NCBI RefSeq assembly: GCF_037975245.1
Contig: NC_092563.1
Location: 1,019,001 to 1,083,000 of the forward strand
DNA: 64,000 bases
Origin: Apostichopus japonicus
Taxonomy: Eukaryota > Echinodermata > Holothuroidea > Aspidochirotida > Stichopodidae
Reading direction: 5' to 3'
The notes under the pieces are model-generated. The model had not been told where the DNA came from and did not search any database. It saw only the letters and a program-made list of their open reading frames with translations. Below are positions 301 through 29,730 of this stretch, piece by piece. Numbering within the stretch: position 1 is the stretch's first letter; each line of letters begins with the position of its first letter. The position numbers and the translations under genes are program-made.

Positions 301-399
301 CCATCCATCCCGGACCTCCCGCTTTATATGCGGAGACCCTGGCCCACTGGGCTAAGGTCGCTAATTGTATGGTCAGTGAAACAGGTGGCACCACTGTAG

Positions 400-3300: not shown

Positions 3301-4440
3301 TGGTTTTTTTCATCTCCCAAGACAAGTTATAAGGTGGCAAGTTACATTGCCTCAAGAAGTACGGTATTGTATGATACTACATGTGATGCAGTATTTCTCG
3401 GGTTAGGGTTAACCCTAACCTAGGGTTTCCCCGGTCCACAAAATGCGCCATTCATTGGGGCTGTACCATGCATGATGATATTGCTCGACATATTAAACTG
3501 TGTACATAGCGGTTCTCTTGAGAAATACTGTCACGTGAGGATTGGCTGGATCATGATACTAAAGTGATGCTTCTGAAAGACCTTTTCTGAGCCTGTATAG
3601 CAACAACAATACTTTGAAAGCGGCCTGCAACTTGTAAAGCATTTAAATATTGACCTTCGGCTGACATCACGTACGTACAGACCAACCAGATATAATATTT
3701 TCATAGAATTGCTGATTGTTTATCTTGACAAGAATTTTTTAGGGGATTCCCCCATTTCAGCGAGTCATGCCATTAGCAATTTATGTTACCTGCCACCTAC
3801 TGAAGAGTGAAATACCACTACGAGTATTGAATAGTATAGAATTGCTGATTGTTTTTATTGCGTACAAATTCAATAATATATCAAACAATCATAACTTTGA
3901 TAAGGAGCACAAAAAAAAATGGGTAGGGGTATTCCCATATCAGAGAGGAACGTCTTCATCAACTGACGTCACATTGCCAGTAACTGTAAAGTAAACAAAG
4001 TTAATACTTTTTTTATATCAAAACTTCAACTTTTCATTATCTTACATGAACTGATTAGAGTTTTGGAATATAACAAAGTCGCAAGTTGATTGCTTTCTAA
4101 GAAAGGAACATGAAAATCCCTTACAAGATAGATCAAACAGGTAAACATTTTTCACATTTGCATTTATAATGTATTTTACAAACTGGTGCAGGCATGATTA
4201 ATGGTGTCGTATATAGAGAAGGTTTTATAAATCTTTTCAAATAATCCCGACATTAGAAACAGATCTATCCGCTCTTTGGTTCTCTTCATTTATTTTCTTC
4301 ATTATCAATCAACTAGTGGAGTGACACAATGCACAGAGGGCTAGAGTGTGGGACCATTTACCCTCTGTACGTGGTTGGGATATATCTTGGATGATGCTGA
4401 ATTTTACCCTGGTACTGCTTCATTATTATCTAGATAGTTT
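400..4440. repeat. Segmental duplication block, copy 1
   Basis: This non-coding block recurs at about 12060-17750 (copy 2) and 23750-30200 (copy 3) in the same order and orientation. Landmarks include the stretch following 'ggcatttgccacctgtat' (400 and 12128), the segments at 840-1060 and 12540-12810, at 1674-1980 and 13409-13720, and the 'caggttgaccgccga' motif at 2810, 14560 and 27917. Reading frames are not kept across copies, so I call no gene. The 1674-1980 segment is better conserved than its surroundings and on the minus strand ends at a good donor (gtaagc, about 1787-1792), so it may be an untranslated exon of an avidin gene lying left of the window. Confidence 0.85.
3401..3428. repeat. 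Interstitial telomere-like repeat, head-to-head
   Basis: GGTTAGGGTT is followed directly by AACCCTAACC and TAGGGTTT. These are a few TTAGGG-type units meeting in inverted orientation. They are far too short for a telomere and sit inside the duplicated block. Copy 2 lacks them. Confidence 0.6.
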
Positions 4441-4503
4441 CTCAGAATAAACCAATGTGAGTTTAAAACGGATGTAAAACAGTAAAGGGAAGGGGAGGCT
4501 AAC

Positions 4504-5260
4504 CTCTGTGCATACTGTTGACCGGTTTCATCTCCGTAGGTAGAATAGAGCAAATCCGACTCTTCTTTGCTGAGATTTGAGTAAGTTGAGTCATACTTAG
4601 GTGCATAAGAGCTGAACGGACCGTAGTATAAATAAGTAACTGTTGAGGCAAACTAAAGCAAAAGTGACAATCTTTTAAGCTAAAATTTCTACACCAGTTA
4701 TGCATTTATACCAACTCGGGGGAAAAACACAAAAGGAATTATTTTGTTAACGTTTGTTTCGTGATTAACATTTAGATGTTACTTATCTGTGTGTGAGCAA
4801 GTCTTACTTGGATTTGCTTTGTCATTGTAGTGCGCGTGCGCGCTACAATATTGGCATTACTGACCAAATGAACGATACTTACATGACTAGACGTTGAAAC
4901 TTCAAGTTTCATATAATCTCTGTACATTTGCAGTTTCAGAGGCTAGCTGCGTAGCCAACTTATTCTGAGCCTGTCATGGCGCTCACAAGCGCCCTCATTT
5001 TTTAGGTACCTACATGACTAAACTCCCTGGTGTGTTGTCCGCCCAAAAAATAACACCATGAACAAACGAAAAGTTGTTCCTAATACTGCAAGCACTCCAC
5101 GCGCAGTAAAATACTGCTTATTTGCAGGCAAATACAGTTCTTAGTCCGTTTGTCATCCCTGAATCCTGGTTATGATCCTGCTCCGTTTGGAGGTCAGTTT
5201 GCCCAGATCGACTGCATATCTATATCGTGAGGGTGCGATAGATTCGATGATACCACCGTA
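4504..5260 (-). pseudogene. Duplicated BRD7/9 exon fragment (one exon intact, one broken)
   Basis: Bases 4504-4639 are identical over all 136 bp to the tenth coding exon of the bromodomain gene (35012-35147), including the flanking acceptor and donor dinucleotides. The intron sequence on both sides has diverged (about ten changes in the ~90 bp on the left). Next to it, about 4803-4830 and 5146-5260 match the following genomic exon (35328-35508). That copy is split by ~315 bp of unrelated sequence, has lost 8 bp ('gcattaat') and has a small insertion that breaks the frame. Upstream, 4320-4500 matches intron sequence at 34835-35011. The bromodomain gene's 3' exons (31.6-34.5 kb) are missing here, so this is a truncated duplicate and not a working gene. 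Confidence 0.85.
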
Positions 5261-5469
5261 CGATGACCTCGTCCACACGGAACACCCGGTGGCCTGCAAG
5301 CAGGGAATGAACACCAACCACGACAGGACCGGACGGGTAAGCATGGTAACAACGGTATACATAGGCAGGCTTACCTTGGGTTTGATTGATACACTGTGCG
5401 GAGGCGTCGAGGGCCACGTCGGTCGCCCCGGAGACAATATTACCATCGAGCCCCCTGTTTGCATTCTTC

Positions 5470-7715
5470 GTTCTCCTTATGTGTATTATGGAAAAGAGAA
5501 TACGCTATTCTTTATCCCGCAAATTTCCGCGAGGTCCTTTCATATATTATCATTTCCTAATTGAACATAGGCCCTGGATGTCGCCCCTGGCCACCCCATA
5601 TCTTCGAGTCTGACCTAACCCTCCCCCATCCCTCTCCCTCCCCTCGCCATGCCTGGCAGTCTACACTGTCACCATCACAACACAAGAAGCAACAAAAGCA
5701 TGCTGACCCCCGTCTTTCTGTACTATGCCCAGATATTGTAGAGGGTTGAAATGAATTATTAAACAAATGTCTATCAGCATCATTGCAACGATTACTGACG
5801 ACATTTAACTATCAAATTTATCTTTGACCCCCCCCCCCACACTCCTCAACCCCCCACCCCAAACAATCGGTTAGTGCATGTTTAAACCCTTATCTACAGT
5901 TTTCGAGTTTGCCGAAAGAGATTAAATTTAGCTTTTAGCATCAGATCCATAGTCCAAGCTTTACAGTAGCTTCCATGCATTCTGAGGATGGGGATGGGGG
6001 TATAGGGTGGTGGGGGTGGGGAGGGAGGGGCTCTAGTGGGTCGCTGCTCAGAAGATCCTGGGTCTTCATGGGTCTAGATGTCCAGATGACACATGCAAAG
6101 CACGACGTGTTTATGAACTTTCACCATAGACTAGCGCACTGGTCTTTTTATGATTTTTTTTTATATGTTTGCCAGTATACGCCCACATTTTCCCCTCTCC
6201 TGGAATTGGCAAAGATTAAGTAAAGAATGACTGAATAACTTATTGGGATAAGGTCACTACTTTATGAAAACTTTACAGTGAAGTGATAGGTTTTTGCTTA
6301 TCTGATTTAAGCAATTTTAGCACAGGCTCTTTGGTTAAGTTAGGGCTAAGAAGGCAAGTTGTATTGGAGATGTGAGGAGGGTGAAGGTAGGGGAGTTAGG
6401 GGGGAGTTAGAAAATCTGATCAACATTCTCCATTGTGGGCAAATTTCAATCAATACTTTTGGTCAAGAAATTGAACATGAAAATGGGGGGCCTGTGAGGG
6501 GTGACGCACCCTCGGTTCTTCATTCACCCTGGCTGAAAAGTGGTTGGCACGAATTATTAAGTTAATTCTCACGCGTATGGAGAAGATCAAATAATTAACC
6601 GCTTGTTTGATGTTACTGTGTGGACAATAATTGATATTCTGTATAGTTGTCAGTATGACGTTCTGAGTTCTGAGTTCGACGGAGTGAAAGTTCACTCTTT
6701 TGGGAGTAACCAGGGTCATACTCTTTATGGGAGGGGGATTGGTATGAGGGGTTAATGGCACTGCTTTCTAAGAGTGACACAGTACCAATTTATCTTCAAA
6801 TTGAGCGGAAATATCTTATATAGTTTAGTCTTTGGTAACAGTGAAAACCCTCTTCAAAAGCGTGATATCCTGGAAACTCTCAAAGAGTGAATTGTTACTT
6901 TTTGAATAGTGAAGAGAGTAAATGGATTTAACCGTCAACTATACATCGATAATTCAGCAGAAGATTGGCTCTTATTTTGTATTTTAAGTTTACTTTTTAA
7001 ATAACTTTTGACAAACAGTTTCCTTTTCCAAAATGTATATGCAATTTGAATAGTCTTTATGGATAGAAAATATATAAATAAAGAAAATGGATACAATTTG
7101 CTGCTGTTCTTTATTGTGGAAATATTATTAAATTGCAATACCAGCAATTTATAGAAAAAGAACTAAGTTTGCACTAGTAAGTGGTGTCAACTTTTTACTC
7201 ATCATGCATGAGGCGGACACTGATACATTTTAACCAATCTTAATTTGGCAGTTTTCGAAACCTTATCGCTTAAGAAAAACCTGATACATTAATACCTAAT
7301 ATATATCCATTTACAGGACTAGGTACGTTCTGAGGCGTTGCGGCCCGTAGATGGAGCACCAAACATTCACTGTGGCCCTTAAAATCAATTTAGGGCCCAA
7401 CCTTGACATAAGACTGCTTTTTTTCTCTCTCACTTTACTGGAATCCTATACTTTAATATTGAAGGAAACGGCTGGGTGTTGTAATCTAACATTTATTTCG
7501 ACCGTTTCTCCGTCTGAACACATTCTTAATATGTTTATGTGACTAGTATAAGTTGCAACAAAACCCTGGACTCTAATCATTATTTCTGAAACCCATTCAG
7601 TCCTCAACACTCTTCTCATTCCTACCCTTGAAAAAAAAAAATGAGAAATCGTTGTTCCTGCACATAATTTTGATCAGTACTCAGTTATGTAGAATATTTA
7701 TCCTTAAATCATCGG
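5470..7715. other. Non-coding stretch; 5770-7300 matches 17760-18480
   Basis: I see no convincing exon. From about 5770 ('gcaacgattactgacgac') to about 7380 the sequence aligns with 17775-18480, so it is the 3' flank of avidin copy A, shared with copy B. Bases 5270-5770 are CT- and C-rich sequence with no match that I recognise. Confidence 0.6.
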
Positions 7716-10394
7716 TTAAGTAGTTGTTGGAAAAGTTGTAGTTTCGTCGGTAGATCTGGCGCCGTTTCGTTCAAGAAAACGAAGTCTTTCTTTAAAATCT
7801 CGAGGATTGTTGGTGTTGTCGGATCTCCGAGGACCTTGTTCCTGTTCAACTCGAGTGAAAATATCGGAACCAGTAAAACTACAGAAGAGAATGAGGAGGG
7901 AAAAGGGAAGGTTTTAAGAGTGTAGCAGTTAAAGTAATCATGTGACCATTAATTGTGTTTCTAACATATTTGAAGCTATTTGACTGATTTCATTGTTTTC
8001 ATCATTTGTTTTTTCAATATGACTCATTGGAACCATTTGTTTTACAGAAAAATCCGTGAGAGAACAACATGTGAGAAGTAGTTGATAGAAAAGGCAAATG
8101 AATTAGTGAAATAATCCTATAACTGCAAGAAATGCCATACTAGGAGCTAAATAGTTACTTATTATTGTTCTATATTGACTAGACCTATACCCCCCATGTA
8201 GTGTCACAGTGGTATAAGTGTGTCTCAACAAGGGGGCTAATATTCATGGATACAATGAATTATGATTTTGGACTCTCCCATTTTGCTCATATCATAAATA
8301 TATTTACAAAGCAAATCGGACTTACGTAGTAATGTCTTCCTGACATTGCCTAGGTACCCTTCTATGAAGTACCCATAAAGTCGTCAGGGTGTCCACACCG
8401 TCACAATGCACACAGACCCCAGTCCAGCTGGCTGCTGAAGTGGTGTTATATCCTTCGTATAGGGCGGTGAAACCGAAAACTGTACCTTCCATGTTGGACC
8501 AACCTGTGATGTAGCTAGGGCCGTCACCTTAAAATATATCCAAGATAAAGGAAGATGACAGAGAAAGAGAAATGAAAAGCAGCCCAAAATTCCCTCAATA
8601 TGTTCCACAATATCCTTCTTCGATATCTCAAAAGCCAGATCGTCTTAAAGTTTACAGTAGCATACTCAAAAGTCCAATTCTGCTGTCGAAGATCCCAAAC
8701 CTGGCCACCGGTTTTCTACCTCCCTCATCCGCCCACCACCTCCCTTCCACTTCTTTGATAGCTTCCTACGCCACTGTTTGGTTGCATTGTCCGAAAGGTT
8801 CTCAACTCCAGTGACGCTATCACTCACTGCAGTGGTAGTACTCGAAAAACGGTCCTCGTTACTCGAGTACCGTAGTATACCCACGTATTCAGTTTTCTTA
8901 TCCATGTACTCGAAAACTCCTCTTTCGTTACTCATATTCGTATGATAAAATACACGTACTCGTATTAAAGTACTCGATTCTTGTTCAGAAAGAGAAATTT
9001 ATGAGCACGTAAGAAAGCACATAACTGGCGCTACCAACGTTAAGGCGAATATTGTTTGGTGTTCCTTTTGGCATCCCATAATATTACTCTACAATGTCTG
9101 ATATGAGCATAACAATCCGAAAACAGGTAACCATGTTCAAAATTAAGAAGCTGCAAATAAAACACATTTGAACAGTTTACGAAAAAATACTATCAAAAAA
9201 GTGTTAACGAAAGTCGAATAGAATGTGGTATGGGAATCACCTGCAGCACCATCTGAAAATTCGACAGCGGTTCGGTATTCTCCTTTGATGTACCCCTCAC
9301 GAGTTACCTGTAGGTACATCTCTGACCCTCTTTGATTGTACCAGTACCCTTTCAAGTTACAACCTGATGGTTAAAGAGGACGATTTGCTACGATAGGAAT
9401 ATTTTCGTAGTAGCGGTTGTTCTATATGAGAATACGTATGTTACTATAATGCAAACTTACCCTTGTTGTTCCGAGTCAATGTGCAAGGTTAAAACTGCCT
9501 CTCCCTTCATGCACGAACACCACAATGTAATCACATCGACAAGTATAGGCTAGCAAGGGAAGCAATATTAGGGCAGGGGTAGACAAGACGAACTTTGTGC
9601 AACAAAATTATTTCCTGTTTCAATAATCCATATACATGCAATTAACGTGAAGATTTGAAGGGGGTGGGCGGTTTTACCTCAAGATACGGGAACAGAGATC
9701 TAAGGGCATTCCACGTTTGTTTATCAAATGAAATGACTTTTTTTAAGCAGAGAAATCACCAAATGAAACTGGAATTACAACTTACCTGTGTTAAAGTCAT
9801 GTGTGACAAGGTCTACGATCTATAATGAGAAGATAAAAAACGAATCAACTTCAAAGGAATTCATCTCGACGAAGAACATGTTGGATTTGAAAGCAAACTT
9901 TAATCAGGATGTTTAGATTGTGGTCTTCCTGTACAGGGCCAAATAAATTTGCATGTGAACTGTATAATTCGTACGAGTATTGGTCCACGTCATCACATGA
10001 CATTTGTATCAAGTCAAAAACTAGCACGCACTGAGGAGACACAGCTCTTGTGTACCATCCATTTGTAAAACAGAAGCCACCTCCCCTCTCGCCCCTCTCG
10101 CCCCTCTCGCCCCTCTCGCCCCTCTCGCCCCTCTCGCCCCTCTCGCCCCTCTCCGTCCTAAAAAACACGTTGAATGCAGTTCGAAGCGTTTTTGACCAAA
10201 CCATCCATATTGACACCTACAATGGGCCCACCTATTGTAGATTTTAATGTATAGAATCAACTTTGTTCAGAATCTAGACGAACGTTAAATTTAAGAGAGA
10301 TAATTTTCTGACTTACCGCAGTAGGACTGCTTGAAGGATCTATCGTTTGTTCACAAACAGCAAACAAACAGTATATCCATGTAAATACGCCCAT
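7716..10394 (-). CDS. Avidin-like secreted protein, copy A
   Basis: Five coding exons on the minus strand: 10317-10394, 9786-9819, 9241-9363, 8326-8527 and 7716-7878, with GT-AG junctions and phases 0/1/1/2, giving 199 aa. Residues 1-~20 are a likely signal peptide. Residues 39-156 match the avidin/streptavidin fold in order: Cys39, the YWYNQRGS strand (Asn47, Ser51), GEYRTAV (Tyr67, Thr69, Val71), FGFTALYEG, SWTG (Trp113), Cys117, LWVL (Trp130) and GSDIFTRV (Asp151, the streptavidin Asp128 position). Two biotin-pocket positions differ from the family and from copy B: Tyr102 replaces the pocket Trp, and Ala111 replaces the pocket Thr. The inter-subunit Trp (avidin W110) is absent. There is a ~40-residue charged, Thr-rich tail. 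The exon at 8326 appears to stop, but a perfect gtaagt donor bypasses the stop. The initiator exon follows an acceptor at about 10400, so an upstream 5' UTR exon is expected. Biotin binding is inferred, and doubtful for this copy. Confidence 0.9.
10082..10153. repeat. 9-bp minisatellite (ctcgcccct)n in avidin A intron 1
   Basis: About eight tandem copies of a 9-bp unit lie in the first intron of avidin copy A. Avidin copy B has only a short C-rich stretch at the equivalent site (about 22980), so the expansion happened after duplication. The GERGERG open frame across it is not a gene. Confidence 0.9.
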
Positions 10395-10632
10395 TGTTCC
10401 TATAAAGATAAGACAATATAAAACAATTGTATCAGAAATATGATTATTGACGAATATCGGCACAAGTCCAACGTTGTTTATAATAGTAAGATGATATTTT
10501 ATTTTAATTAAAAGATCCCAAGGTTAGCTTTATCTCCGATATTTGGTTGCCTTATTCTGTGGAGGTTTATACACCAAGTTAAGCCGTTAAAAACCCTTAA
10601 TTTATGCCAACAACGGAGCACTTTAAATGTTG

Positions 10633-11458
10633 TCCATCCATCCATCCATCCATCCATCCATCCATCCATCCATCCATCCATCCATCCATCCATCCATCCA
10701 TCCATCCATCCATCCATCCATCCATCCATCCATCCATCCATCCATCCATCCATCCATCCATCCATCCATCCATCCATCCATCCATCCATCCATCCATCCA
10801 TCCATCCATCCATCCATCCATCCATCCATCCATCCATCCATCCATCCATCCATCCATCCATCCATCCATCCATCCATCCATCCATCCATCCATCCATCCA
10901 TCCATCCATCCATCCATCCATCCATCCATCCATCCATCCATCCATCCATCCATCCATCCATCCATCCATCCATCCATCCATCCATCCATCCATCCATCCA
11001 TCCATCCATCCATCCATCCATCCATCCATCCATCCATCCATCCATCCATCCATCCATCCATCCATCCATCCATCCATCCATCCATCCATCCATCCATCCA
11101 TCCATCCATCCATCCATCCATCCATCCATCCATCCATCCATCCATCCATCCATTCATTCATTCATTCATTCATTCATTCATCCATCCATTCATCCCTCCC
11201 TCCATCCATCCATCCATCCATCCATCCATCCATCCATCCATCCATCCATCCATCCATCCATCCATCCATCCACCATCCATCCATTTACCCATCCATCCAT
11301 CCACTAATCCATCCATCCATCCACACATCCATCCACCCATTCATCCATCCATCCAGCCATCCATACATCCATCCCTCCATCCACCCACCCACCTATCCAC
11401 CCATTCATCCATCCATCCACCCATCCATCCATCCATCAATCCATCCATCCATCCATAT
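10633..11458. repeat. (CCAT)n array, perfect core with degenerate right arm
   Basis: About 520 bp of uninterrupted CCAT units (10633-11153) pass into TTCA-type variants (11153-11180) and then a ~280-bp degenerate CCAT region. It lies upstream of avidin copy A. The left flank (10503-10632) matches the left flank of the array at 97-300. The long IHPS and WMDG frames are repeat artefacts. Confidence 0.97.
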
Positions 11459-14400
11459 GTAAGTTTAGGGGTTTTCTGTACTGGCGTGCCCTCCCAAAAG
11501 TATGATGACTCAGGGGAGAGAAGTTGTAAAGATAACGCAGGAACAAAAGATTAACGGTAACTTGAAGGATGTAATAACAATTAACTGGAACAACGGTATG
11601 CTTGAATAGTTTAACAACAATTAACTAGAACAACGATATACTGGAATAGTTTAACAACAATTAACTAGAACAACGGCTTACTGGAATCATTTAATAACTT
11701 AACCAACTAACTATAAAATATAATTTACTTACAAGCTCACTTCCCACATACAGTATAACTCAAACGTACTCACAAGTGTTGGCCGGTCAACCATGCATCC
11801 GTATTCACTGCCTCATTCATTCGCTCTCCCAAACATTTTCAAAAACAAGAAAGTTCTCTCACACCACACGCACACACTCACACAAGTTACACGCACGCAA
11901 CACAATCAGCGCGCCGCGCCCGATACATTTAAAAACCTCCGTACGTAATTAAACAGCGATGCATCGATACAAGCGCACCATAGCCTAACGCTACACTATA
12001 TACATGTACGCCCACACAAGAATACGCCTTTCGTATTAATCGCTCATTTACACTTACATCTGACCCACTGGGCTATGGACGCTAATTGTATTGCCAGTGA
12101 AACGGTAAGAAAATTCGTAATTCCACTGTAGGCATTTGCCACCTGTATCGAACAATGCTATCTATTCGGGTGACACATTTTGCCTTACTCTCGAGATCAA
12201 TCATGATGCTATCCAACTCGAATCATTTGTGATTCCTACAGCCGGATCTATTAATATAGTCACAACACAGTTCTCTGATCACAACACGTATATAAACACA
12301 ATGAAGATGGCGATATGTTGTATTCTTCCAGCTCTTAGACCGGAACCTAACAGGATTATATCGTAGCTTATTTGTCGAACAAGTTGTTAGGTGACTTTAA
12401 AAGAACTATAGGTCGGAAGGAGGAAAGATGGTTGCTAGTTTGCCTCCTTTTACCAATATGAATCTATGCCTATACCAGCGGGAAATTTGAATGAAGCCGC
12501 AGCGGAGTATTCGTAGTCCTTGACGATGAACGGTGAAGAGACTAGGTGTCACTGTTCCCCATGAGATAAGACAGTCGGTAAATATTATAATTTTCTTTAT
12601 TTAATACCTTTTGACTTTCGATGTGGAAGTTCATTTTCATTAAACTGTTGCTTCCTACTTTGACAACTCCAGACACTGGAGATGATAGCTCACGGTTTTG
12701 GAGAACGGTAATATACCTAGGCCTAAACCCACTACGAGTTTTATTAACAAAGACAATTAATAAATTATCTCGTTTGGACGATTTCGTAAACATGTCAAAG
12801 CTGATTGTCTCTCCATTAGCATTACCGAACCCATTTATAATTCAATGACTATGCGTTTTACTTTATGGTTTTATTAACTTCCCAGGAGTATTAAATTAGG
12901 GACATGGGTTTGCTATGTATTACTCAATGTAGTTGCGTTGATTACACCAATGAATTCACGCTATCAGATGATCAACCAATTTTCTGTTCGTCAACTTTTG
13001 CAAGGTTGTTAAAAAATATGTGACCAAAAAGTGCATAAAATGTCTATCAATTAGAACACTCTGTCCATACATCGAATTTAAAATAAACAATAGACCTCAA
13101 TACTGTCAATATTGTTTCATATTGAATTTCATGGAAAAAGAGCAGATGTAATGTTTCAAATGTGTTTGTACCTCTTCAGTGTTTCAAATGGTCGTTCCCG
13201 AAACAGCAATAATTGGCGTATTGAAATGCGTGTTGCATATTTTTACAGCTTGTTTATTACAGACGTTGCGATGAAGGGGTGGTGTAAACTCTTACCCCGG
13301 ATAAGTCAGTCTGGTAGTATATGGTTAAAACGTACCCCCTCCGGCCTCCTGGATAGGAGGTTAACTGAATACATTCTGCTGAGCTAACAAATACCATCGT
13401 GAAGACGCATGGAAAATGACAGAGTGTACCTTACTAGCCAACAAGAAATTCAAATACAATCACCGACTTTCTTCCAAGAAAACAAAAACAAAACATTAAA
13501 AACAAAAAAACAAAACATGCTTACCTTATATGTAGTGGCTCTAAATGCCCCGCAGTTTGTAGATAACAATGTTTTCAATCCAGCAGATGAGGCAAAAGTG
13601 TTGTTTATGCCAAGATACTGTCGTCATTTATATTCCGGACTATGGGTAGCAACACACGATAGAGGTCGGAGGTTCAGAGGTCTGAGATCAAATACATTTT
13701 TGTTCGTAAGCGGAACTCGATGAGATTATTGTTAAAGTTGTAAGGATTGCTATAGGCACTAGAAATACACGAAGCCGTGTACTGGGTTATAGTCTTTGTT
13801 TAACATGAAATGTGATGGATTAAAGTTGAACATAAAATGTGATGAATTAAAGTGTTAGTCCTATTCAGTACGTAATATTTTGTTGGTTTGATAAAAAAAA
13901 AATAGAATCAGTATGTCGGACAATATTTCTGAGGCAGACCAGTCTATCCTTTAATCCAATCCATTGTATGCAAAGTGAATTACTAAGGAAGCTGCCATAT
14001 ATATGTTTAATGGGTCTACTTTCTTCCGTTTTTCAACTGTGCGTGTTTTTTTGAAATTGTTATTTCTGGCGAAGGAGATCGTTCATTGTTATAATTATAC
14101 TAATATTGTAAGAAAATGTTACCATACAAGGCGTTATTATAAGTTGGTGACCGTGACCCAAGCTCGTCAATTTTGCCGCCATAAAGTACATTTGGTACAA
14201 TGAATCGAGACAAGGACTCGACTCGAACTTCCATGTACTTAACTACGGGTAGTGTATAGTGACTTGACTTCGAATGAAGTAAACTCATTCATTACAACTA
14301 CAAATCTGACTAAACATAGTCATAGATGATCACAGCTTTTATGCCGCCGCACATACAAACTGGTGAGGTTCGTGTCCTTTGGATGACCAACACCCAATCC

Positions 14401-15321
14401 AACCACCACCCAACCACCACCACAACCAAAAAATATCAAATCACTTTAAAGTTACTTTCTGTTAAATCATACTTTTCCATTCCCTTTTACACCAGTTTAA
14501 AAACATAGATGGCATGCACATATAAGTATTTTTGAAGTGCTGCCCAAATTAATTCTAGTGTCAGGTTGACCGCCGACTGAAGGGTTGGGAGAGCAGGCGG
14601 TTTAAATAACCCCGACTGATTTAGGTAGGGTATTTAGAACCTTAATGAGGAGGGGGGTGGTGGTGTCAGACGAATCAATAAGATGCAAACTTGTAATATA
14701 TTTTGTATAACGTTTGAAATAAAGTTGAAGAACTTTCGACTGTTTAGACCGAAAATACATGTTATATATGTATACTGTACATTAGACCTTTTTGAAGTAT
14801 TCTGTCCGCCAGTGAGTGTGTGGGGGTGGGGGTGTGACTTCCTGATTCAATTCCGGGAGGGGGGGGGGGTTGTTGAAGTCCCTCCGGTTTTGCCTTGGTC
14901 ATAAGCTGTGACAAGATTATGAGGACATTTCAAGGGTATAACTTTAAAACGTGTTCCCAAGATGTCTAAGTGGATACCATGTTCTTCCGTCTTGCTGTAG
15001 CTTCCCTTATATACTCCGTCACTATATATTTACTTCTCGCGTGACCTTAATTGTAATTTGACTATTCATGAGACATTGAGATCGTGATACAATAGTGATA
15101 CTATACAATACTTTGAAAGCGACCTGCAACTTGTAAAGCATTTAAATATTGACCTTCGGCTGACAATCGCGTACGTACGGACCAACCAGAAATAATATTT
15201 TCATTGAAATACGGATTGTTTATCTTGACAAGAATTTTTTAGGGGATTCCCCCATTTCAGCCAGTCATGCCATTAGTAATTTATGTTACATCGCCACCTA
15301 TACTGTAAAGTGAAATACATC

Positions 15322-17282
15322 CAGGCGCGTATCCAGGATTTTCTAATCCGGGGGGCGCGAATTACTATCTAAGCGGAGCGCCACCATCGGTTGGCGCGGA
15401 GCGTACAAGAAAATTTCTGGTTTTGATACCCCCCAGATCACCGGAAATGGCACTTCTCGGGCTTGAAAATGACTAACCAGATATACACTTTTGCCTGAGA
15501 ACCAAGTATTTCCCAAAAGTTTTTTTTTCCCATCCATAACCTTTTTGAAGATTGTCATCAGTCACACATCATGTTCGATCTCATTGCAAGTCCTATGGAT
15601 GATTGCTTTTGTAGGTGATTCTACGTCACGGCCTACAATATCCGAAAGCCCCACTTTTCAAGGTTTTAAGCCCATTATTTGTTGAGAATTTGAAAATTGA
15701 CATTTCTCGTGAATAAAAATCACTTCAAAACATACCCATAATGTTGCACAAATTCTATCTATGGACAACCAATATAGAAAAACCTCCTTGAACCCCTAAT
15801 AGACAGGTCAAAATTGAACGAGTAGAGGAAAGTATGATGAAGATTGTTGGTGAGGAAATTTTCGAAAATTCCGACACAGTTAATTTCTTGGTGTAGAAAT
15901 ATTGCAACCTCTTATAATGGCTATTATAAAACTTGGTTGAAGGAAATGACAAATAGCAGATATTTCCGATATCAGGTATATCGAAACCGAACGCTACACA
16001 CATAGGCGTAGGTCCCGTAGGAGGCGGGGCTGCAGCCCCACCCCCCTTCCCGCAACCAAATTTTTTCCCATTTTTTCTGGCACCTACTGAAAGAAAAATA
16101 AATAGCAATGAATAGCTTAAAAATGATCTCCTTGGTAATTAAAATAAAGTTCAAAGCTTGGCCGACATAACTATACTGTAAAAGAGAGTTTTGACATAAA
16201 TGGATCTGTATGCTTTCTCTCCATCTACAAAAGACATTTGGTTGTTTACATTAGCATCCGGCGGTATACTGTGCAACTTTCACGGACCTTAAGGCACACG
16301 ATGCCATGCAATGTAATGACCGATGCTTGCTTATATGATATTGGCATCGATGTGTTGAACGCGCGCTTCGCGCGCGAAAAATTTTGGCTTTTTTTTCGGG
16401 CAAGTCGTTACAGCCCCAAATCCAATTTGGCTCCTACGCCTTTGACTACACACAGACAGTTTTTGATGCTGTTCATCGTGGAACATGCATTTCAATGCTC
16501 ACTGATATGATGTTATATCTGCTCTTTGCTTTACAAATTCGAACAGGCGTGTAGCGAGTAATTGCCAAGGTAGGGGAGAAGCCTGTAGGCAAACTATCTA
16601 AACGAAGCGCCACCATGGGTTGGCGGGAAGCGTACAAGAAAAATTTTGGCCGAAAATGCCTCCCAGATCGCTGGAAATGACACTTCCCATGCCTTGTAAG
16701 TTGCATCTAAGCATTGTCTATTTTGAAATTACTAGCGATGTCGTAAAGAAAATTTGCTCGGGGGGGGGGGGGGCGGTCGCCCCCTTCCCGAAATGCGTCA
16801 TGTTCCCCGACGACTCGTTCGAGTTCAAGACCAGCCACAGTTGGTTCCATATATCACAATTGTACAAGTGTTAAGGCGTCCATACACACACACGCGTTAT
16901 GATAGACCATATATAGTATTTATATAGATACATTAGTGAGAGAGGAAAAATGGAAACGTCAAAAATGGAGTTGTCGGTGTAAGGGGTAGGGTGAGGCGCA
17001 CACCCCCTCCGTAATCCTTGATCTGTCACTGGCTACCCTGTGTATATAATTGGGATCAGCGCTTTAACTATGACTTTTCCTTTTTCTCTTCCCGAGGTCT
17101 TGGCTATCTTCTACTCCCTCCTTTTCTCCTTTTTCTCTCTTTTTTCTTTTTCTTTTCCCTTCCTTTCTCTCCTCCTTTTCTTTTTTCCCCCTCCTTTTCC
17201 CTTTTTTCTTCTCTTTTTTTCTCTCCTCTTTTCCTTACCCGGGGGGCGCGCGCCCCCAACGCCCCCCCTGGATACGCACCTG
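15322..17282. mobile_element. Composite non-autonomous DNA transposon insertion
   Basis: The ends are inverted copies: CAGGCGCGTATCCAGG at the left and CCTGGATACGCACCTG at the right, bordered by the 5-bp direct repeat 'acatc'. Inside are two copies of a core shared by many elements in this window (around 15375 and 16601), a nested element at 16001-16444, and long CT- and GC-rich stretches. No transposase frame is visible. It is absent from the equivalent site in copy 1 (about 3800). Confidence 0.7.
16001..16444. mobile_element. hAT-like MITE, nested
   Basis: Terminal inverted repeats CATAGGCGTAGG and CTCCTACGCCTTTG are flanked by 8-bp near-identical target duplications (gctacaca / actacaca, 7 of 8). 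The 444-bp element has no coding capacity and lies inside the 15322-17282 insertion. Confidence 0.7.
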
Positions 17283-17749
17283 ACATCAACAATTTAAAAG
17301 AGCCCCAACAATTGGTAAAATATGTAGAAATTGACCTTCGGCTGACAACATGTACATATACGGATCAACCACTACGAGTATTGAATAGTATATAATTGCT
17401 GATGGTTTTCATTGCGAGCAAATTCATTTATTTATCAAACAATCATAACTTTGGTTATAAGGAGCACAGAAATGTGTAGCGTTTTCCCCATATCAGAAAG
17501 GAACCTCTTCATCAACTGACGTAACTTTGCCAGTTACTGTAAAGTAAACAAAGTTGATACTTTTTACATCAAAACTTCAACCTTTTCCTTATCTTACATG
17601 GACTGATTAGAGTTTTGGAATATAACAAAGTCGCAAGTTTATTGCTTTCTTAGAAAGGAACATGAAACTCCCTTACAAGATAGATCAAACAGGCAAACAT
17701 TTTTTCACATTTGCACTCTATAATGTATTTTACAAACTGGTGCAGGCAT

Positions 17750-18920
17750 GATATATGTTCTCTAGCATAATTTGTAACGATTACTGGCGATATTTAAGTA
17801 TCACATTTCTCTTTGACAAAACCTTTATGGGGAGGGGTTAATTTCACTACTTTCTAAGAATGACACACTACCAATTTATCTCCAAATTTAGCGAAAATAT
17901 CCTATATAGTTTAGTCTTTGGTAAGAAAGAAATCACTCGTCAAAGGCGTGATATCATGGAAACTCTCAAAAAGTGAATTGTCACTTTTAGAATAGTGAAG
18001 AGAGTAACTTGAGGAATTTATTTTCTAATTTTAACCGTCAACTATATACATCGATAATTCAGCAAAATATTGACTTTTAGTTTTTATTTTAAGTTTGCTT
18101 TGATTTTGAGCAAAACACATTCCTTTCCTAAAAGGTATGCCTATGTCCACATAGGCAATGCAATGTTGATTAGTCTTTATGATAGAAAATAAAGAAAGAA
18201 AGAAAATAAAATCAAATATTTGATGGTGTCCTTTATTGTGACAATATTTTCAAATTCAATACCTGCAGTAAAATGTATAGATTAAGAATTAAGTTTACAG
18301 TAGTAAGTGGTTCCAACTTTTTACTCATCATACATGAGGTGGATGCAGATACATTTAAAAAAAAACATCTTAATATGGTGGCATGTGGCCCTCGGGAATC
18401 TTTTCTAGGTTGAACCGATAAATATAAATATTGATACATTCTGAGGTGTTCCACTGTGGCCCTTAAGATCAACTTCGTGGCCAACCTTGACAGACGGGAA
18501 GACTAACGAGTTGTTTTGTTACGCCCTCACTTTATTGGAAGCCTACTTTAATATCGAAGGAAAGGGCTTGGTGTACGGTAGTCTGATATTTGTTAGGGCA
18601 CTCCCTGCCTTTCTGCGGTTGGAAACATTCCTAATATGTTTATGTGCTAGTATAGGTTGATTACGAACAGAACCATGAATTCTTATCATTTTGTTGTAAC
18701 CCCCTCTCCAATCCCTCATCCCAACCCCTGCCCCTTACTCTTAGCTACATTACTTGCTATACATGCTTCGATCACTGAGAATGTATCCACGTACATGAAT
18801 ACTCTACATGTGGCTTTTCTTACAAAAAAAAAATAGAAATGTTATTATTCCTGCACATAATTATGATCAGTAAACAGTTATGTGCAATGTATATCCTTAA
18901 ATCATCGGTTAATATATTAC
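17750..18920. other. 3' flank of avidin copy B, non-coding
   Basis: Bases 17775-18480 align with 5775-7380, and 18800-18920 with 7620-7715. I see no exon. The shared segments show that the duplicated unit runs through the avidin gene and its 3' flank. Confidence 0.65.
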
Positions 18921-21900
18921 TTAATATGTTGTAGTTTCGTCGGTGTCGTTGGCGCCGTTTCGTTCAAGTAAACGAAGTCTTTCTTTAAAATCTCGAGGAT
19001 TGTGAGTGTTGTCGGAGCTCCGAGGACCTTGCGCCTGTTGAACTCGAGTGAAAGTATCGGAACCAGAATAACTACAGAAGAGAAGGAGGAGGTAAAAGGG
19101 AAGGTTTTAAATAATTATGTGACCAGTAGTTGTCTTTCTAGCGTATTTGAAGCTATTTTGTTCATTGTTTTCATATTTCTTTGTTCAATATGCTTTATGC
19201 CAGGCGCGGCGGAACGGAAAAATTATTGGGGGGGCTAATGTGTGGAGACTATCTAAGCGGAGCGCCACCATCGGTTGGCGCGGAGCGTACAAGAAAATTT
19301 TGTTTTTTTTCAAACCCCCAGATGGCCGGAAACGGCACTTCCCGAGTGTTTTATGCTGCGAATACCTAGCCCTAAAATATGGGTCTCAAGCCTGCAATTT
19401 CTCAGATTGCACGTAAAAGTCTGTAAAAACATTGTAATTTGTATATTCGATGGTGTTTTAAGAGAGTAGCTATTACTCGTAGTGTACTCGCAAAGACGTT
19501 TTTGAGTGTAGTAAGGGCAGTGGCGGAGCTAGGGGTATTGGTCAGGGGGGGGGGCAAGAATGGTCTGTAGAGGCGCTTTCGACACTATCTAAGCGGAGCG
19601 CCACCACAGGTTGGCGCGGAGCGTACAGAAATTTTTTGAGTAAAGATACTCCCTAGATTGCAGGAAATGACCCTTTCCGGGCCTTGCTAATTTGCAGATA
19701 AACGGAGAATAAATAGGTGTCGTCGCCATTTTGTCGGAAAATTACACCAACAGAATATGACAAATGTCAATAGGTATATGAGAGCGCAATAAAATAGTCA
19801 ATAATCGCGAATAAGTAAAAAGTAGTGAAAAGCTGAAAAGGGCGCCAGCAGTCCATTTGAGTCGGTCAGGGGGGGGGGGGCGGTATCCGCCCCTGACTGT
19901 ATATATGGACGCTCCGCCACTAAGTAAGGGGATGTTGGAGAACTGGCTGAAATGAGGTAAGTCATTGGCCTAAGACGAAGTTGTGTTACGCTTACCGGTA
20001 CTCACACTCACTGCTTCCACTTTTCACGGGGCGTGAAGACGCGGTTGGGGTGACAATGTGGTCTATAGCCAGGGGACGGGCCGAGCGTCCCCCAGCAAAT
20101 TATTACACCTATATAGTATACGTGTGCATCGGACAGATCGACAAGTATGCATTGAAAAATGGGCAGATGCAAGTTTCGGTGCCTTGGTAAATATTGGGGG
20201 GGCTTATCATGCATTTGCCCCCTCAACTTTTTCATTGGGGGGCTGAGCCCCCCCAAGCCCCCCCGGTTCCGCCGCCACTGCTTTATGCAAACCATTTGTT
20301 GCACCGAAAAATCCGTCAGAAAAACAAGTGAAAAGTAGTAAATAGAAAAGGCAAATATATATTTGTGACATACTCATAGTTGCAAGAAATGCCCATGCTA
20401 GGAGCTAAACAGTTACTTAATATTGTTCTATATTTACCAGACCTATATCCCATGTAGTGCACAGTGGTAAGATTGTCTCAACATGCGGTGTACGGATACA
20501 AGGTGAAATATAAACTAGAAAAGCATATGAATCTCTGAAGTTCTTATATCATATATATACAAAGCAATTAAGGCAAGCTTACACAGTAATGTCGTCTGTA
20601 CATTGTCTAGGTACACTTCTATGAAGTACCCATGCGGTCGTCAGGGTGTCCACACCGTCACAATGCACACAGACCCCAGTCCAGCTGGTTGTTGAAGTGG
20701 TGTTGAATCCTTCCCATAGGACGGTGAAACCGAAAACTGTACCTTCCATGTTGGACCAACCTGTGATGTAGCTAGGGCCGTTACCTTGAAACGTATCCAA
20801 GACAAAGGAAGATAAAATTAAAAGAGAAATGAAAAGCAGCCCCAACATTCCCTCAATATGTTCCTCAATATCCTTCTCAGATACCCCCAAAGCCAGATCG
20901 TCTTAAAAGTTAACAGTAGCATACTCAAAAGTCCAATTCTGCTGGCAAAGATCCCAAACCTGGCCACCGGTTTTCTACCTCCCTCATCCTCACACCCCCT
21001 CCCTTCCACTTCCTTTATAGCTTCCTATGCCACTATTTGGTTGCATTGTCCGAAAGGTTTTCAAACTCCAGTGACGCTTATACTCACTCTAGCAGTGGTC
21101 CTCGTTACTAAAATACCGTAGTATACCAAAGTATTCAGTTTTCCTATTCATGTACTCGAATACTCGTCATTCGTTAATCACATTCGTATGATAAAATACA
21201 CGTACTCGTATTAAAGTACTCGATTCTTGTTCAGAAAGAGAAATTTGTGCAGCACCTATAAAAATAATAATAAATGACCCTGCCAACATTCAGGCGAATA
21301 TATATATTTTGGTTGTCCCTTCTGGCATCCCATAATATTACTCTACAATGTCTGATATGAGCATAAAAATCCGAAAACAGGTACCATGTTCAGAATTAAG
21401 AAGCTGCAAATAAAACACGTCTTTACAATAGGTATACGATTCATACTAACAATAAAGTGTTAAATAAAATTCGAATGGAATTTGGTATAACAATCACCTG
21501 CAGCACCATATGCAAATTCGACAGCGGTTCGGTATTCTCCTTTGATGTACCCCTCAGAAGAGACTTTAAGGTAAACCTCTGACCCTCTTTGATTGTACCA
21601 GAACCCTTTCAAGTTACAACCTGATGGTTAAGGAGGAAAACATGCTACGATAGGAATATTTTCGTAATAACGTTTGTTCTATCTGAGAATACGTATGTAA
21701 CTATAATGCAAACTTGCAAAACGCTTGATTCTCCGAGTCAATGTGCAAGATACAAACTGCCTCTCTCTTCATGCACGAACACCACAATGTAATCACATCG
21801 ACAAGTATAGGCTAATCTTCGGGACTCGATTGTGGGATTGGGAAGCAATGTTAGGGCAGGTGTAGACAAGACTATAATCCAGTACAATAATCCAATCGTG

Positions 21901-23411
21901 GGGGAGTTGACGAAATGGGTTTGGCGTGGGAGTTCGGTGTTTTTACCTCAAGATACGAGAACAGAGATATTTAAATAACATTTATGTCCATTCCACTTTT
22001 GTTTATGAAATGAAATGACCACCTGAAAATGAAATTACAAACTTACCTGTGTTTAACTCTTGTGTGACAGGGTTTACGACCTATAAGTAGAAGAAAAAAG
22101 TGTTAACGTACCTCACAAGCCTTATCGAAATATCACAGAGACATTGAATACATGGCCATTATACGGACTGTTTAGACAAACACATCACATACACATATAC
22201 AAACATACACTTACCATATACAGACGCACATATATTCAGACGCAGGAAACATAAACTTACACTGATGTATCCAAGTTTGAAGATTGAAGATAATTGGATG
22301 CAAATTACACGCCATCACACTTGTTAGCTTCAAGTTCAAAGCTCTGATAGGTACAAAACGAATCAACTTTAAAGGAATTTATCTCGACGAAGAACATGTT
22401 GGATTTGAAAGTACACTTTTATCAGGATGTTTAAATTGTGGTGGACCTGTACAGGCCCAAATAAATTTGCATGTGAACTGTATTCATACGATTTTCGGCA
22501 AGACTTTTCTGGCTAAGCCACGCGCCAACTGATGGTGGCGCTCCGCTAAGATAACGTCATGATGGTTCCTTTTGGGAAATGGCCCACTCACTAGACTTTT
22601 CTTTAAAAAGGCCCAGGTATATACGCACATAAAAAAGCACCACTTTGTAACATTTGGACAATACATAATGTACATAATATAATCACTTGTGACTATTGTT
22701 AAAATGTGTTTATGGCTGACAAATCGATTGAGGGACCAAACAGAAGCAAACTTGAAGATTTCTAGATGTGAGTCCGCCCCCTGGACTCGCGCCGGGAGTT
22801 CGCTTCTCGACCCCATCAGGGACCCTAAGGAGGGCCCCTTGACCGATTTGCGCCAATTCGGTCTCGGTTTAACTACGCGCACACTACTTCAGTTTAATCC
22901 ACGTACAGTCATTTATGCCCCCCTCCCCTTTTCAATTGAGATTGACGCCCCTGGTACAATCCTTTGTAACACAGAAGCTCCACCCCCCTTCCCCTCCTAA
23001 AACAAACCACGTTGACTGCAGCTCGAAGCCTTTTTGACTGAATCAATAATAAAAAAAAAGAATAGAAATCTACTATCTAAAAGCTTTGGCAGCAGAAAAA
23101 TGACGACACGGCAATACTAGTGTCCCTTCGTAACACATTCAGTTATAAGCGAACAGTACTGAATTTACATGGCATAGCTCAAATAAACCCCATGCACTTA
23201 CAAGCCCACCCATGCACTTATATAGTTGGAACCATCCGTTTTAGGCCCACCTATTGTAGAGTTATGTGTTGAGTCAACTCTGTCCAGTATATAGTCGAAC
23301 GTTAAATTTAAGAGAGTTAATTTTCCGACTTACCGCAGTAGGACTACTTGAAGGGTCTATCGATTGTTCACATAGAACAAAGAGACAGTATAGATATGCC
23401 AATACGCCCAT
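18921..23411 (-). CDS. Avidin-like secreted protein, copy B
   Basis: Five coding exons on the minus strand: 23334-23411, 22047-22080, 21498-21620, 20583-20784 and 18921-19071, with the same phases as copy A, giving 195 aa. It has a signal peptide, then an avidin domain at residues 39-156. It keeps more of the biotin pocket than copy A: Asn47, Ser51, Tyr67, Thr69, Val71, Trp102, Ser109, Thr111, Trp113, Trp130 and Asp151. Trp110 of chicken avidin, donated by the neighbouring subunit, has no counterpart in the DDITVYSGSD stretch, as in dimeric avidins. Cys39 and Cys117 match the disulfide of chicken avidin; Cys120 and Cys140 are extra. An NTT sequon lies in the loop before Trp113. The C-terminal ~40 residues are hydrophilic and unlike known avidins. 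Introns carry MITE insertions (19201-20280, and about 22495-22950). A secreted biotin-binding role is inferred from the family. Confidence 0.92.
19201..20280. mobile_element. hAT-like MITE with exact 8-bp TSD, hosting a nested MITE
   Basis: The left end CAGGCGCGGCGGAACGG and right end CCGGTTCCGCCGCCACTG are inverted repeats. Both sides carry the 8-bp target duplication 'ctttatgc' (19193-19200 and 20281-20288). It sits in the last intron of avidin copy B. The equivalent intron of copy A (around 8020) is an empty site, so it inserted after the duplication. It contains the MITE at 19518-19922. Confidence 0.85.
19518..19922. mobile_element. hAT-like MITE nested in another MITE
   Basis: Ends CAGTGGCGGAGC and GCTCCGCCACTA are flanked by exact 8-bp duplications 'agtaaggg' (19510-19517 and 19923-19930). 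It is 405 bp and closely related to the element in the TRIP13 intron at 53865-54233. No open frame of note. Confidence 0.9.
22495..22950. mobile_element. MITE-like insertion in avidin B intron 1
   Basis: The reverse complement of the core found in other elements ('ggcgctccgctaag') lies at 22535-22550, and the segment ends near 'gacgcccctgg' at 22945. The equivalent intron of copy A lacks this segment. I could not define both ends or a target duplication. Confidence 0.5.
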
Positions 23412-24995
23412 TGTTCCTATACAGATAAGAAAATAGAAGAAATATGAGACAAAAATATGATTATTGACGAATATTGGCACAAGTCCAAAGTTGGCATATG
23501 ATATTAGGTTAATCTAATCGGAGGTGTATTTTCCTATGGTTGTAAAAGTATTTGAGGTCTTTTCTGAACAGTTTCCTTTTTTTAACTCACCTATTGTCGC
23601 TCTAGACGGGAGAGACCAAGAATGCACTTATTTTTTAATGAACTAAAGAAAATGCAGTTTCTAAAAAGACTTAGCCTTTACAGAAAACATCATAGTTAAG
23701 TGACGCCCTGTCACATGGCCACACATATTCATCTTATCGTATATATGTATAGTGCAGAAGATACATGTCATCGCTGACAGTAGCAGTGCGTGTTTCTGTA
23801 CGTATATGTATATAAAGTCACAATACGACTCTCTGATCACTGCAGGTATATAAACACAATACGATGGCGACTTGTTGCATTCTTCCAGCTCTTAGACCCT
23901 CCTCACACAATATGAATCAATTTTAGGCATTTATGCCTATAATACCAGCGGGAAGTTTGAATGGAGCTCTCGCTGGGTATATGTGGTCCTTGATGATTAA
24001 CAGGGTAAGAGACTATAGACATGAGCCTTTGAACAGTCGGTAAATATTGCTCATGTTTATTTAATACCTTTCGACATTCGGTGAAGTTGAAGTTCATTAA
24101 TTGTCATTAAACTGATGGCTTCTTGCTTTGACAACTCCATACACTGAAGATGATAGCTCACGGTTTGGAGAACGGTAATAAACCTAGGCCTAAACCCACT
24201 ACGAGTTATGTTATATAGACAACTTATAAACGTCTCGTTTGACAATTTGGGCAAATTTCTGATTTCAAGCTGATTCTCTCTCCAGTAGCATTACCGGACC
24301 CATTTATAACTCACTGTCTATACATTTTACTGTATGGTAGCGTAATATCCCGAGGAATATTAAATTAGGGACTGGAACAGACTTTGTATTTATTCAGTGT
24401 TGTTGCATTGCTCACATTCATGACGTCATACGGTCAGATGATCAACCCACTCGGTCCGCATGTTATTGTTTGGTCAACTGTTCCAAAGTGGTTAAAAATG
24501 TGCGACCCAAAATGCCAAAAAATGTCTATCAATAGGACCATTTATCAAATAAAAAACAAAACCTCAATACTTTCAGCTTTGTTTCATATTATATATTATG
24601 GAGAAAGAGCAGATACAATGTATCACGTGTGTTTGAGCCTCTAAGGTGGTTTAAATTATCGCTCCCCCAAGAACAATGATAGGCGCCTGATTGAAATGCG
24701 TGTTGCATATTGCTAAGCATGTTTCTATAGCAGTATGTTTTTATAGCAGCATGTTTTTATGCCTGACATACGTCAGTTTGGTAGTATTTACCCATCCGAC
24801 CTGGATTTTGCATATTCATGTAATTAACTTACAACAGGACGTCAAAAACTTAAAAGCAGAAACTATTTGTTCTTCATGTTCCTAGACGCCACGGAAGGGG
24901 CAAATGATCACATTTTCGTGCCCCTGCAGACACCCTGTAACATGCAATTCGAGACTGCCCAACCTCCACATCTCCACATTCCGCTATATCGCTCA

Positions 24996-24999
<4 letters not shown>

Positions 25000-25069
<70 letters not shown>

Positions 25070-25100
25070 TATATATATATATGTGCATATATATGCATAT
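25000..25100. repeat. (AT)n microsatellite
   Basis: About 66 bp of pure AT dinucleotide is followed by ATGCAT-type variants. The YIYIYI frames are artefacts. Confidence 0.97.
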
Positions 25101-26988
25101 GAAATATGTTCACATTCTTACCTATAACTTAAAAAAAACTAGGCATTTACTTCAGGGGGTTGAAAATTACAAAAATAACACATTACATTCTAATTTGGAG
25201 CAGGCGATTAGCATCTCTCTATAGTTATAGGAGCAGCTGATTAGTTGTAACCATATATCCGATCTTAGAATGAAGGGGAGGGGTGGATCCATTTATGTGG
25301 ATAATTCTCTGATTTAATAATATGTGAATATTTCATGATTTTATAGAAATATCGTAAAGTTATGAGTAAGGCAAAATGCAGCGCTTACAACTTCCTCCTC
25401 CTCCTCCCCTTCTCCTTCCCGGACCTAATACTCCTCGTTCCGATTTCACAAAGCTATCCTCCATTACTCCCATACACCTATCTTTTGACATGGGTGTACT
25501 CATGGATGTTATACAACAGCCTACATCCCGCTACAAACCACCCTTCAGCATTTCACATGCATCGACACCAATAAAAACTACCATCTTGAAGACGCATAGA
25601 AAAAGGCCATAGTCTACCTAAACCGTAGCCAACATGAAATTAAAATAAATCACCTAACTTAATTCTTGCAAAAAAAGAAACAAAAACAAAACAAGCTTGC
25701 TTACCTTCGGTGTGCAGCGATTCAAAAATGCCCAGATTATAGATAAAGTGTTTTAATTCAAATTGAGAAAGCACACATGTAGCCTGAAGAGGTAGCAACA
25801 GTGTTGTTAATGGCAAGATAACGTCGTGATTTAAACAAATCCCTACCAATGGATGGGTAGAAACAGATGATGACAGTTCAGAGGTTCGTTTGAGATCAAA
25901 GATCACCTCGTCGGGAGTATAGCAGAACTCGATGACAAGATTGTTAAAGTTGTAAGGACTGCTAGTCGTATTACGTGTATATGGTGAATTGTTATATGAC
26001 TGAACTGGGTTGGTCTTTGTTCAAACGTAAAGTGATGGATTAGAGTCTTACTTACAGGGGGTAAGAAGCTTCCAAAAAGTAGGGGGAGGGGTGACAACGT
26101 CAGAAGGGCGCTTTCTCATTCCACAACCACCACTCGTTATGCTATAAACCGATACACACCGGCCATATCCCTTTAATATATATGATGTGTTAGTATGCTT
26201 TCAATACTATTTATTGAGATTGTTTATTGTTAACCATGCTACTAAAAGATATGGGATGCCATATTAAAAATAGCATGTACAGACTAAAAATAAGTAATTT
26301 ATATAAAATATTACAAATTAACAAAGGCTTAAGATATCCAAAAGACAGTTCTTCATTTATTTGCCAGTAGGGCACATTTGCTATTTTGGAAAAAAAGTGG
26401 GGGAGGGTGCACGTACCCCCAGTGCTCCCCGGTTCCTACCCCTGCTTACTTAGTACGTAATACTCCGTTGGTTTGATACAAAAAATATAATCAGTATGTC
26501 GGACAATATTTCTGAGTCAGACCAGTCTATCCTACCCTTTAATCCAATCCATTGTATGCAGAGTGAACTACTATGGTAGCTTCCATATATATGTTTACGC
26601 GGTCTACTTCCTTTGTTGTTTCAACTGTGTGTGTTTTTGGAAAGGGTTATCTCTGGCGAAGGAGATCGTTCATTGTTTTAGTTATCTTTACTAAGATTGT
26701 AAGAACAGGTTACCATACAAAGCTTTATAAGTTCATTCTTTTGAAGGGAAGCAGATTTATTTGACCGAAGATATGCTTAAACACTGTTATAGTGAGTCAA
26801 GGAGCTCGAGCCACTACGCGACCGTGACCGACCTTCGCCGAGTTTGCCGCCATAAAGTACTATACATTTAGTACAGTGACTCGAGGCAAGGACTCAACTC
26901 GAAACATGCAATTAAATACGGGTAATGTAGTGACTTGACTTCCAATGAAGTAACTCGGTACAACTCTGGCATAAAATAGTCAAACATG

Positions 26989-27614
26989 CAAGGGCGGCGG
27001 AAGCATTTTTAATCTGGGGGGAGGGGGCACCGACATCAAAGGGCACTTTGCAGAAATTCGATTGGACTGATGCAGCCTTATATTTAGTACCCTTTATAAC
27101 TCTTATTGTATCATCTTATTTGCGTATACACATCACTCCATCAACGCCCCCCCCCCCCTCAAGGAAAATATGCATACTATAGCACTGCAATATCCAATGT
27201 GAAAAAAATGAGGTAAAATCATGTTAGTTGCTAATGTAGGAATCTTCCGAATTAGAGTTTATTTCTTGTTAATATCTTAACAAATTTTGTTTCCATTCGA
27301 AAAAGCTTTGAGTTTGACCCACAGAAATTCAATAAAAGTCAGGGGCATAGCCAGGATTAGCAAAGTTGTATGCACGACTATCTGAGCGGAGCGCCACCAT
27401 CGGTTGGCGCGGAGCGTATACAAGAAAATTTTTGGTTTTACAATGCCCTCAGATGGCCGGAAACGGCCCTTCCCGAGTGTTCATTCTGGTTCCCTGGCCT
27501 CTTGCTGACTTGAGACACCTCAATTTTTATGTAGAAAAAGGGCACATTTTTAACCTGAGGAAAAGTGGGGGGGGGGCACGTGCCCCCTGTGCCCCCCCGG
27601 TTCCGCCGCCCTTG
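26989..27614. mobile_element. hAT-like MITE with exact 8-bp TSD
   Basis: Terminal inverted repeats CAAGGGCGGCGGAA and TTCCGCCGCCCTTG are flanked by 'caaacatg' on both sides (26981-26988 and 27615-27622). The equivalent sites in copies 1 and 2 (about 2570 and 14325) lack the insertion. It holds the shared core (27381-27430) starting near a secondary end-like motif at 27341, suggesting a composite element. Confidence 0.88.
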
Positions 27615-29487: not shown

Positions 29488-29730
29488 TGTGATGTCACAT
29501 CCTCACATTCCTGAAAATTCTTTATTTTTTTCTCTAAATATTTTGTAAGATTTCATGACTTTCAACCAAAAGATATGTCAGGAGATCTCATATTTGTCAA
29601 AGGAAGTATTTGAGATTAAACATCTGAAGAATTTTGATTATATTATTTTCAAATGTTTTAAAAAAATGTAAATAATATTAAAAAAAATATTTTCACAAAT
29701 GTTAAGGAAGTGAGGATGTGATGTCACACC
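29488..29730. mobile_element. Inverted-repeat element, MITE-like
   Basis: TGATGTCACATCCTCAC at about 29490 is mirrored by GTGAGGATGTGATGTCA at about 29710, enclosing a ~200-bp AT-rich interior. It lies in a segment of copy 3 that is absent from copies 1 and 2. Flanking duplications are not clear. Confidence 0.5.

Follow-up and report, generated by a model that had tools for sequence, protein, structure and literature searches.

We analyzed a 64,000-nucleotide stretch of the genome of the sea cucumber Apostichopus japonicus (the window, C3:1019001-1083000), which contains two avidin-like genes, A and B, and is bordered on its left by a third copy, Z. Our preferred explanation, to which we give a probability of about one half, is that A is a recent, still-coding avidin copy that has lost the tryptophan-threonine pair of the biotin pocket and would bind biotin weakly, or reversibly, while Z and B retain the pair. 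Judging from the encoded residues, A probably binds biotin less tightly, and a new ligand for it is possible. Biotin binding by Z, A and B, and the order of their affinities, we infer from sequence.

A changed biotin pocket in gene A

Gene A lies on the minus strand and runs from start to stop codon at 10394..7716 (coding exons 10394-10317, 9819-9786, 9363-9241, 8527-8326 and 7878-7716), giving a coding sequence of 600 bases and a protein of 199 amino acids. Gene B, also on the minus strand, runs from 23411 to 18921 (coding exons 23411-23334, 22080-22047, 21620-21498, 20784-20583 and 19071-18921) and has 588 coding bases and 195 amino acids. The exons of both genes were rebuilt from the sequence, all four introns in A and all four in B are bounded by GT..AG, and the outer coordinates, 7716 and 23411, agree exactly with those of the initial annotation, which had described two five-exon avidin homologs. 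Avidin (PF01382, curated cut-off 24 bits) is the only Pfam domain in either protein, matching A at E = 1.5e-21 (77.4 bits) and B at E = 5e-23 (82.1 bits), both over profile positions 1-116 of 116. When A and B were searched against the PDB, xenavidin, zebavidin and streptavidin ranked with the best matches. A tblastn search over the window found no avidin exon beyond those of A and B, the remaining rows having E > 0.5. The N-terminal residues form a hydrophobic, signal-like segment (judged by eye), and the products of Z, A and B are predicted to be secreted. Because a pyrimidine-rich stretch and an acceptor-like AG that ends 5 bases before the ATG are found in all three genes, each likely has an additional, non-coding 5' exon.

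We aligned 11 domains, comprising the seven paralogues found in this genome (Z, A, B, and C23a, C23b, C19 and C15, named after their contigs) and vertebrate and bacterial avidins, and compared them at the known biotin contacts of avidins. Position 102 (avidin Trp70) is Trp in 9/11 domains, Tyr in A and Arg in C19, and position 111 (avidin Thr77) is Thr in 7/11, with Ser in zebavidin, Ala in A, Arg in C19 and Val in C15; within this genome, three lineages (A, C15 and C19) have departed from Thr77 and two (A and C19) from Trp70. Asn47, Tyr67 and Trp130 are conserved throughout, Thr69 except for Ser in streptavidin, Trp113 except for Phe in AVR4, and Ser51 in 10/11 domains, while Asp151 falls outside the aligned exons for the C23, C19 and C15 genes. 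Z and B retain Asn47, Ser51, Tyr67, Thr69, Trp102, Ser109, Thr111, Trp113, Trp130 and Asp151, that is, every within-subunit contact compared, variable loop 3-4 excepted. Among the compared contacts A lacks the Trp at 102 and the Thr at 111, and it keeps the ureido contacts Asn47, Ser51, Tyr67, Thr69 and Asp151. The residues that had been singled out before, Trp102, Thr111, Trp113, Trp130 and Asp151 in B and Tyr102 and Ala111 in A, are all as described and fall in the pocket columns of avidin and streptavidin, and the frame and splice sites of A are intact as claimed.

Two other features named in the initial annotation are real but less distinctive than it implied. The inter-subunit Trp110 of chicken avidin is indeed lost in A and B; its column holds Trp in 6/11 domains (four vertebrate or bacterial rows, C23a and C23b) and Asp143 in Z, A and B, but the loss is not peculiar to these copies within the genome, since C19 has Ala and C15 has Pro. 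Because this tryptophan of the neighbouring subunit is missing, even Z and B would be expected to bind biotin more weakly than chicken avidin does. The C-terminal tail of ~40 residues is also present, but it is not unusual within the genome. In B and Z, exon 5 encodes 49-53 residues, the last of which form the tail; the tail of A occupies 7716..7848 on the minus strand (~43 residues and the stop after FTRV in exon 5, a position derived from the gene model), and tails also occur in C23a and C23b (a 46-residue exon-5 reading, with a weak acceptor pyrimidine tract in C23a) and in C15 (32 residues). No tail-type exon 5 was found for C19.

Cys39 and Cys117 go together: Z, A, B, C19 and the three vertebrate rows have both, and C23a, C23b, C15 and streptavidin have neither. 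They match the pair known as Cys4-Cys83 in vertebrate avidins. Cys120 and Cys140 occur in 7/7 paralogues, offset by one column between the C3 copies and the others, and this presence in all seven suggests a second, paralogue-wide disulfide that the vertebrate avidins compared do not have.

In our preferred explanation, Z, A and B are tandem copies of a stand-alone, predicted secreted echinoderm avidin-like protein with a signal peptide, an eight-strand barrel and the ~40-residue tail. Z and B keep the within-subunit biotin clasp but not the tryptophan by which, in chicken avidin, the adjacent subunit contributes to the site. In the later copy A, the Trp-Thr pair has become Tyr-Ala, which would take away one hydrogen bond with the biotin sulphur as well as some of the aromatic wall. 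A is still coding, and its product most likely holds biotin weakly or reversibly. A hydrogen bond joins Trp70 and Thr77 of avidin (PMC5398887), so both changes in A strike one unit. Bradavidin has Phe66 in place of Trp70 and no Trp70-Thr77 bond, and its biotin complex has been crystallised (PMC5398887). AVR2 has Ser at Thr77, with a larger cavity, a lower affinity and a biotin dissociation >5000-fold faster than that of avidin (PMC1282572), and zebavidin, which is highly expressed in gonads, loses biotin ~100,000-fold faster than avidin (PMC3811995). Weak avidins are thus ordinary, and the best reading of A is that it adds another to their number.

Tandem duplication and the origin of the change

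The expectation of a further copy to the left was borne out when we extended into C3. Z, at C3:1018901-1016115, has the same five coding exons as A and B, and its start codon (C3:1018901) lies 100 bp beyond the left edge of the window. Three duplicated units follow one another, the first (1..7594) holding the 5' side of Z, the second (7632..18702) holding A and its 5' side, and the third (18824..30197) holding B and its 5' side, with piecewise matches to the other two at ~67-87%. Positions 12060-15083 in the second unit are 87% alike to 339-3275 in the first, and 20290-22099 on the B side are 80% alike to 8031-9838 on the A side, so the tandem segmental duplication proposed earlier is upheld. 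The ~11 kb spacing proposed for A and B holds for their stop codons (11.2 kb apart), but their start codons are 13.0 kb apart. Intron 4 of B has an extra stretch of ~1.1 kb (19200..20290) that is missing from A and Z; within it, 19518-19925 is a dispersed repeat 83% alike to 53865-54236. A (TCCA)206 tetranucleotide array at 10633-11456 precedes the A start codon by ~240 bp, and beside Z the corresponding place is taken by a TCCG array (103-289).

Because Z and B keep Trp102 and Thr111, Tyr102 and Ala111 are derived in A and arose after A and Z split. They belong to a group of A-specific replacements, V100A, W102Y, T110A and T111A, in codons 100-111 of exon 4 (8430..8465, minus strand).

Constraint on A and alternative explanations

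The coding exons of A and B differ by no insertions or deletions (indels), against 15.1 expected at the intron rate (P 2.8e-7), and those of A and Z by none against 5.4 expected (P 0.0045), the latter test spanning the A and Z branches jointly and inseparably. Coding exons without indels beside introns with many argue that the proteins have been maintained, and the ratio of nonsynonymous (dN) to synonymous (dS) divergence between A and Z is 0.54.

Several results weigh against the reading of A as a maintained, weaker binder. Between A and B, dN (0.124), dS (0.125) and intron divergence (0.126) are equal, the pocket contacts show no excess of change (P 0.24, 0.48 and 0.80), and a nucleotide scan of the whole A gene for clustered changes is not significant (P 0.27). 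All three fit an explanation in which A is a redundant copy under relaxed constraint, heading towards a pseudogene, whose pocket changed through drift or biased gene conversion with nothing selected; we think this somewhat unlikely but the most serious of the rivals. Biased conversion would also favor changes from A/T to G/C, which make up 6/8 of the A-derived changes in exon 4 compared to 13/34 in introns, and relaxed constraint fits an A-Z dN of 0.051 at 27 family-conserved columns, above the 0.023 at variable ones, although there are few events in either class. Against it stand the lack of coding indels between A and Z, to which both branches contribute, and the intact frame and splice dinucleotides of A.

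Alternatively, Tyr102 and Ala111 may have reshaped the innermost part of the pocket and retuned A for a different ligand, which we consider improbable. Four of the six mature replacements on the A branch lie within residues 100-111, a 12-residue stretch that includes the pocket pair (P 0.010-0.027, post hoc), and 5 A-derived base changes fall in the 36 bp involved compared to 0.9 expected (P 0.0024, a local, unscanned value). The change from TGG to TAC takes two base changes, and its single-step intermediates encode a stop or Cys. However, exon 4 overall has 8 A-derived changes compared to 5.1 expected (P 0.14), the whole-gene scan gave nothing significant, all of the ureido contacts are retained in A, and known avidins altered at these positions still bind biotin. 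Full neofunctionalisation is less probable still: losing the hydrogen-bonded Trp-Thr pair would have opened the deep pocket end, either to a different small molecule or to the conserved C-terminal tail of Z, A or B, reaching in from a sister subunit as an intrinsic peptide ligand. If true, the cluster would encode several secreted paralogues whose ligands are graded or differ from copy to copy.

It is also quite improbable that the barrels of Z, A and B serve mainly in oligomerisation, as described for fibropellin, and that none of the three copies binds biotin or needs to. Trp110 is absent from Z, A, B, C19 and C15, C19 has Arg at the Trp70 position, fibropellins bind no biotin, and the combination of Trp110Lys and Trp70Arg abolishes binding by avidin (PMC8033661), but Z and B hold nearly the whole within-subunit contact set, and no EGF-like repeats were found by regular expression in their scanned flanks. 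Finally, Tyr102 and Ala111 are very unlikely to be assembly errors or polymorphisms of one haplotype, for although the sequence represents one haplotype only, what sets A apart is a number of distinct base substitutions rather than homopolymer indels, and genome searches, whose match counts are lower bounds, found no second haplotype of the cluster.

We therefore regard the observation in the initial annotation as confirmed and its interpretation, a change of ligand or affinity after duplication, as partly supported: the loss of the pocket pair in A is derived and the frame is kept, and of the two outcomes weaker affinity is preferred and a new ligand possible.

Other avidin genes in the genome and in other organisms

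We searched the 671.6 Mb of the same assembly, in 35 contigs, and obtained at least 12 exon matches at E <= 0.001 (of 15 candidates) with the profile and at least 17 matches at E <= 1 (of 18) with the proteins. These represent at least seven avidin-domain genes in four genomic settings: the tandem secreted copies Z, A and B on C3, a pair on C23, one gene on C15 and one fibropellin-type gene on C19. The members of the C23 pair, C23a and C23b (at C23:3706647-3707892, plus strand, and C23:3779170-3782768, minus strand), are near-identical, lie ~70 kb apart on opposite strands and retain Trp70, Thr77, Trp97 and Trp110, making them this genome's best candidates for tight biotin binding. In the C19 gene (C19:12870001-12900000), 14 EGF-like pattern matches precede the avidin exons, which encode Arg at the Trp70 position and again at the Thr77 position, and by its sequence organization the gene is a fibropellin-type EGF-avidin gene. 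The EGF-like scan used a regular expression without Pfam confirmation, and by that pattern there were no matches in the window or in the scanned C3, C23 and C15 loci, all 14 being in the C19 loci.

Z, A and B resemble the vertebrate avidins (chicken avidin, AVR4, xenavidin, zebavidin) as predicted secreted single-domain barrels with the pocket residues, and the zebavidin loop 3-4, ESTRGAA, resembles EFSDGAA here. Unlike them, they lack Trp110 and have the second cysteine pair (120/140), the ~40-residue tail and 5 coding exons; the tetrameric avidins with an inter-subunit Trp110 share that residue with C23a and C23b, not with Z, A and B (Asp143). The avidin-like domain of sea urchin fibropellin is, like Z, A and B, an echinoderm avidin-type domain without Trp110, and its EGF repeats, avidin exons and Arg at Trp70 (PMC8033661) are matched by the C19 gene, in contrast to Z, A and B, which stand alone as secreted proteins and of which Z and B keep Trp70 and Thr77. 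With bradavidin, A shares the changed Trp70 position and the missing hydrogen bond (PMC5398887). Bradavidin and hoefavidin also have C-terminal tails, which are intrinsic ligands that bind in the pocket (PMC5398887), but the tail of Z, A and B is longer and of other sequence, and the disulfide between loop 3-4 and loop 5-6 of those proteins has no counterpart among the aligned cysteines. Chicken AVR2, like A a family copy with a changed Thr77 position, has a biotin affinity lowered partly by that change (to Ser), but it retains the inter-subunit tryptophan (Trp-108) and owes its low affinity mainly to Ile109 (PMC1282572).

To the right of the avidin units lies a bromodomain gene (PF00439, 8.2e-9; best PDB match BRD7, 4.4e-15), beside whose exons is a minisatellite at 36635-38665 (132-base unit, ~15 copies), and beyond it an F5/8 type C exon (1.3e-8, factor VIII matches); neither gene bears on the avidins. 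In the mitochondrial contig C35, COX1 reads MNLSRWLFSTNHKDIG only under code 9 (AAA = Asn, AGA = Ser), which is used by echinoderms and flatworms; taken with the fibropellin-type gene, this indicates an echinoderm. ND1, ND2 (ND names assigned by eye) and the large rRNA are on the COX1 strand, an arrangement more like that of sea urchins and sea cucumbers than that of sea stars. Further COX1-like fragments at C29:14745-31219, outside C35, are a mitochondrial insertion or unplaced mitochondrial sequence.

Sea urchin and lancelet are already among the eukaryotes with avidins (PMC8033661), and several avidin copies have been counted in some fishes (PMC13425791). Z, A and B add new members, of modest novelty, to this known family. 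Avidin is the textbook example of extreme affinity, and here a very recent natural copy without the Trp70-Thr77 pair stands beside two copies that have it, which would make these three genes a clean natural comparison of how biotin affinity is given up.
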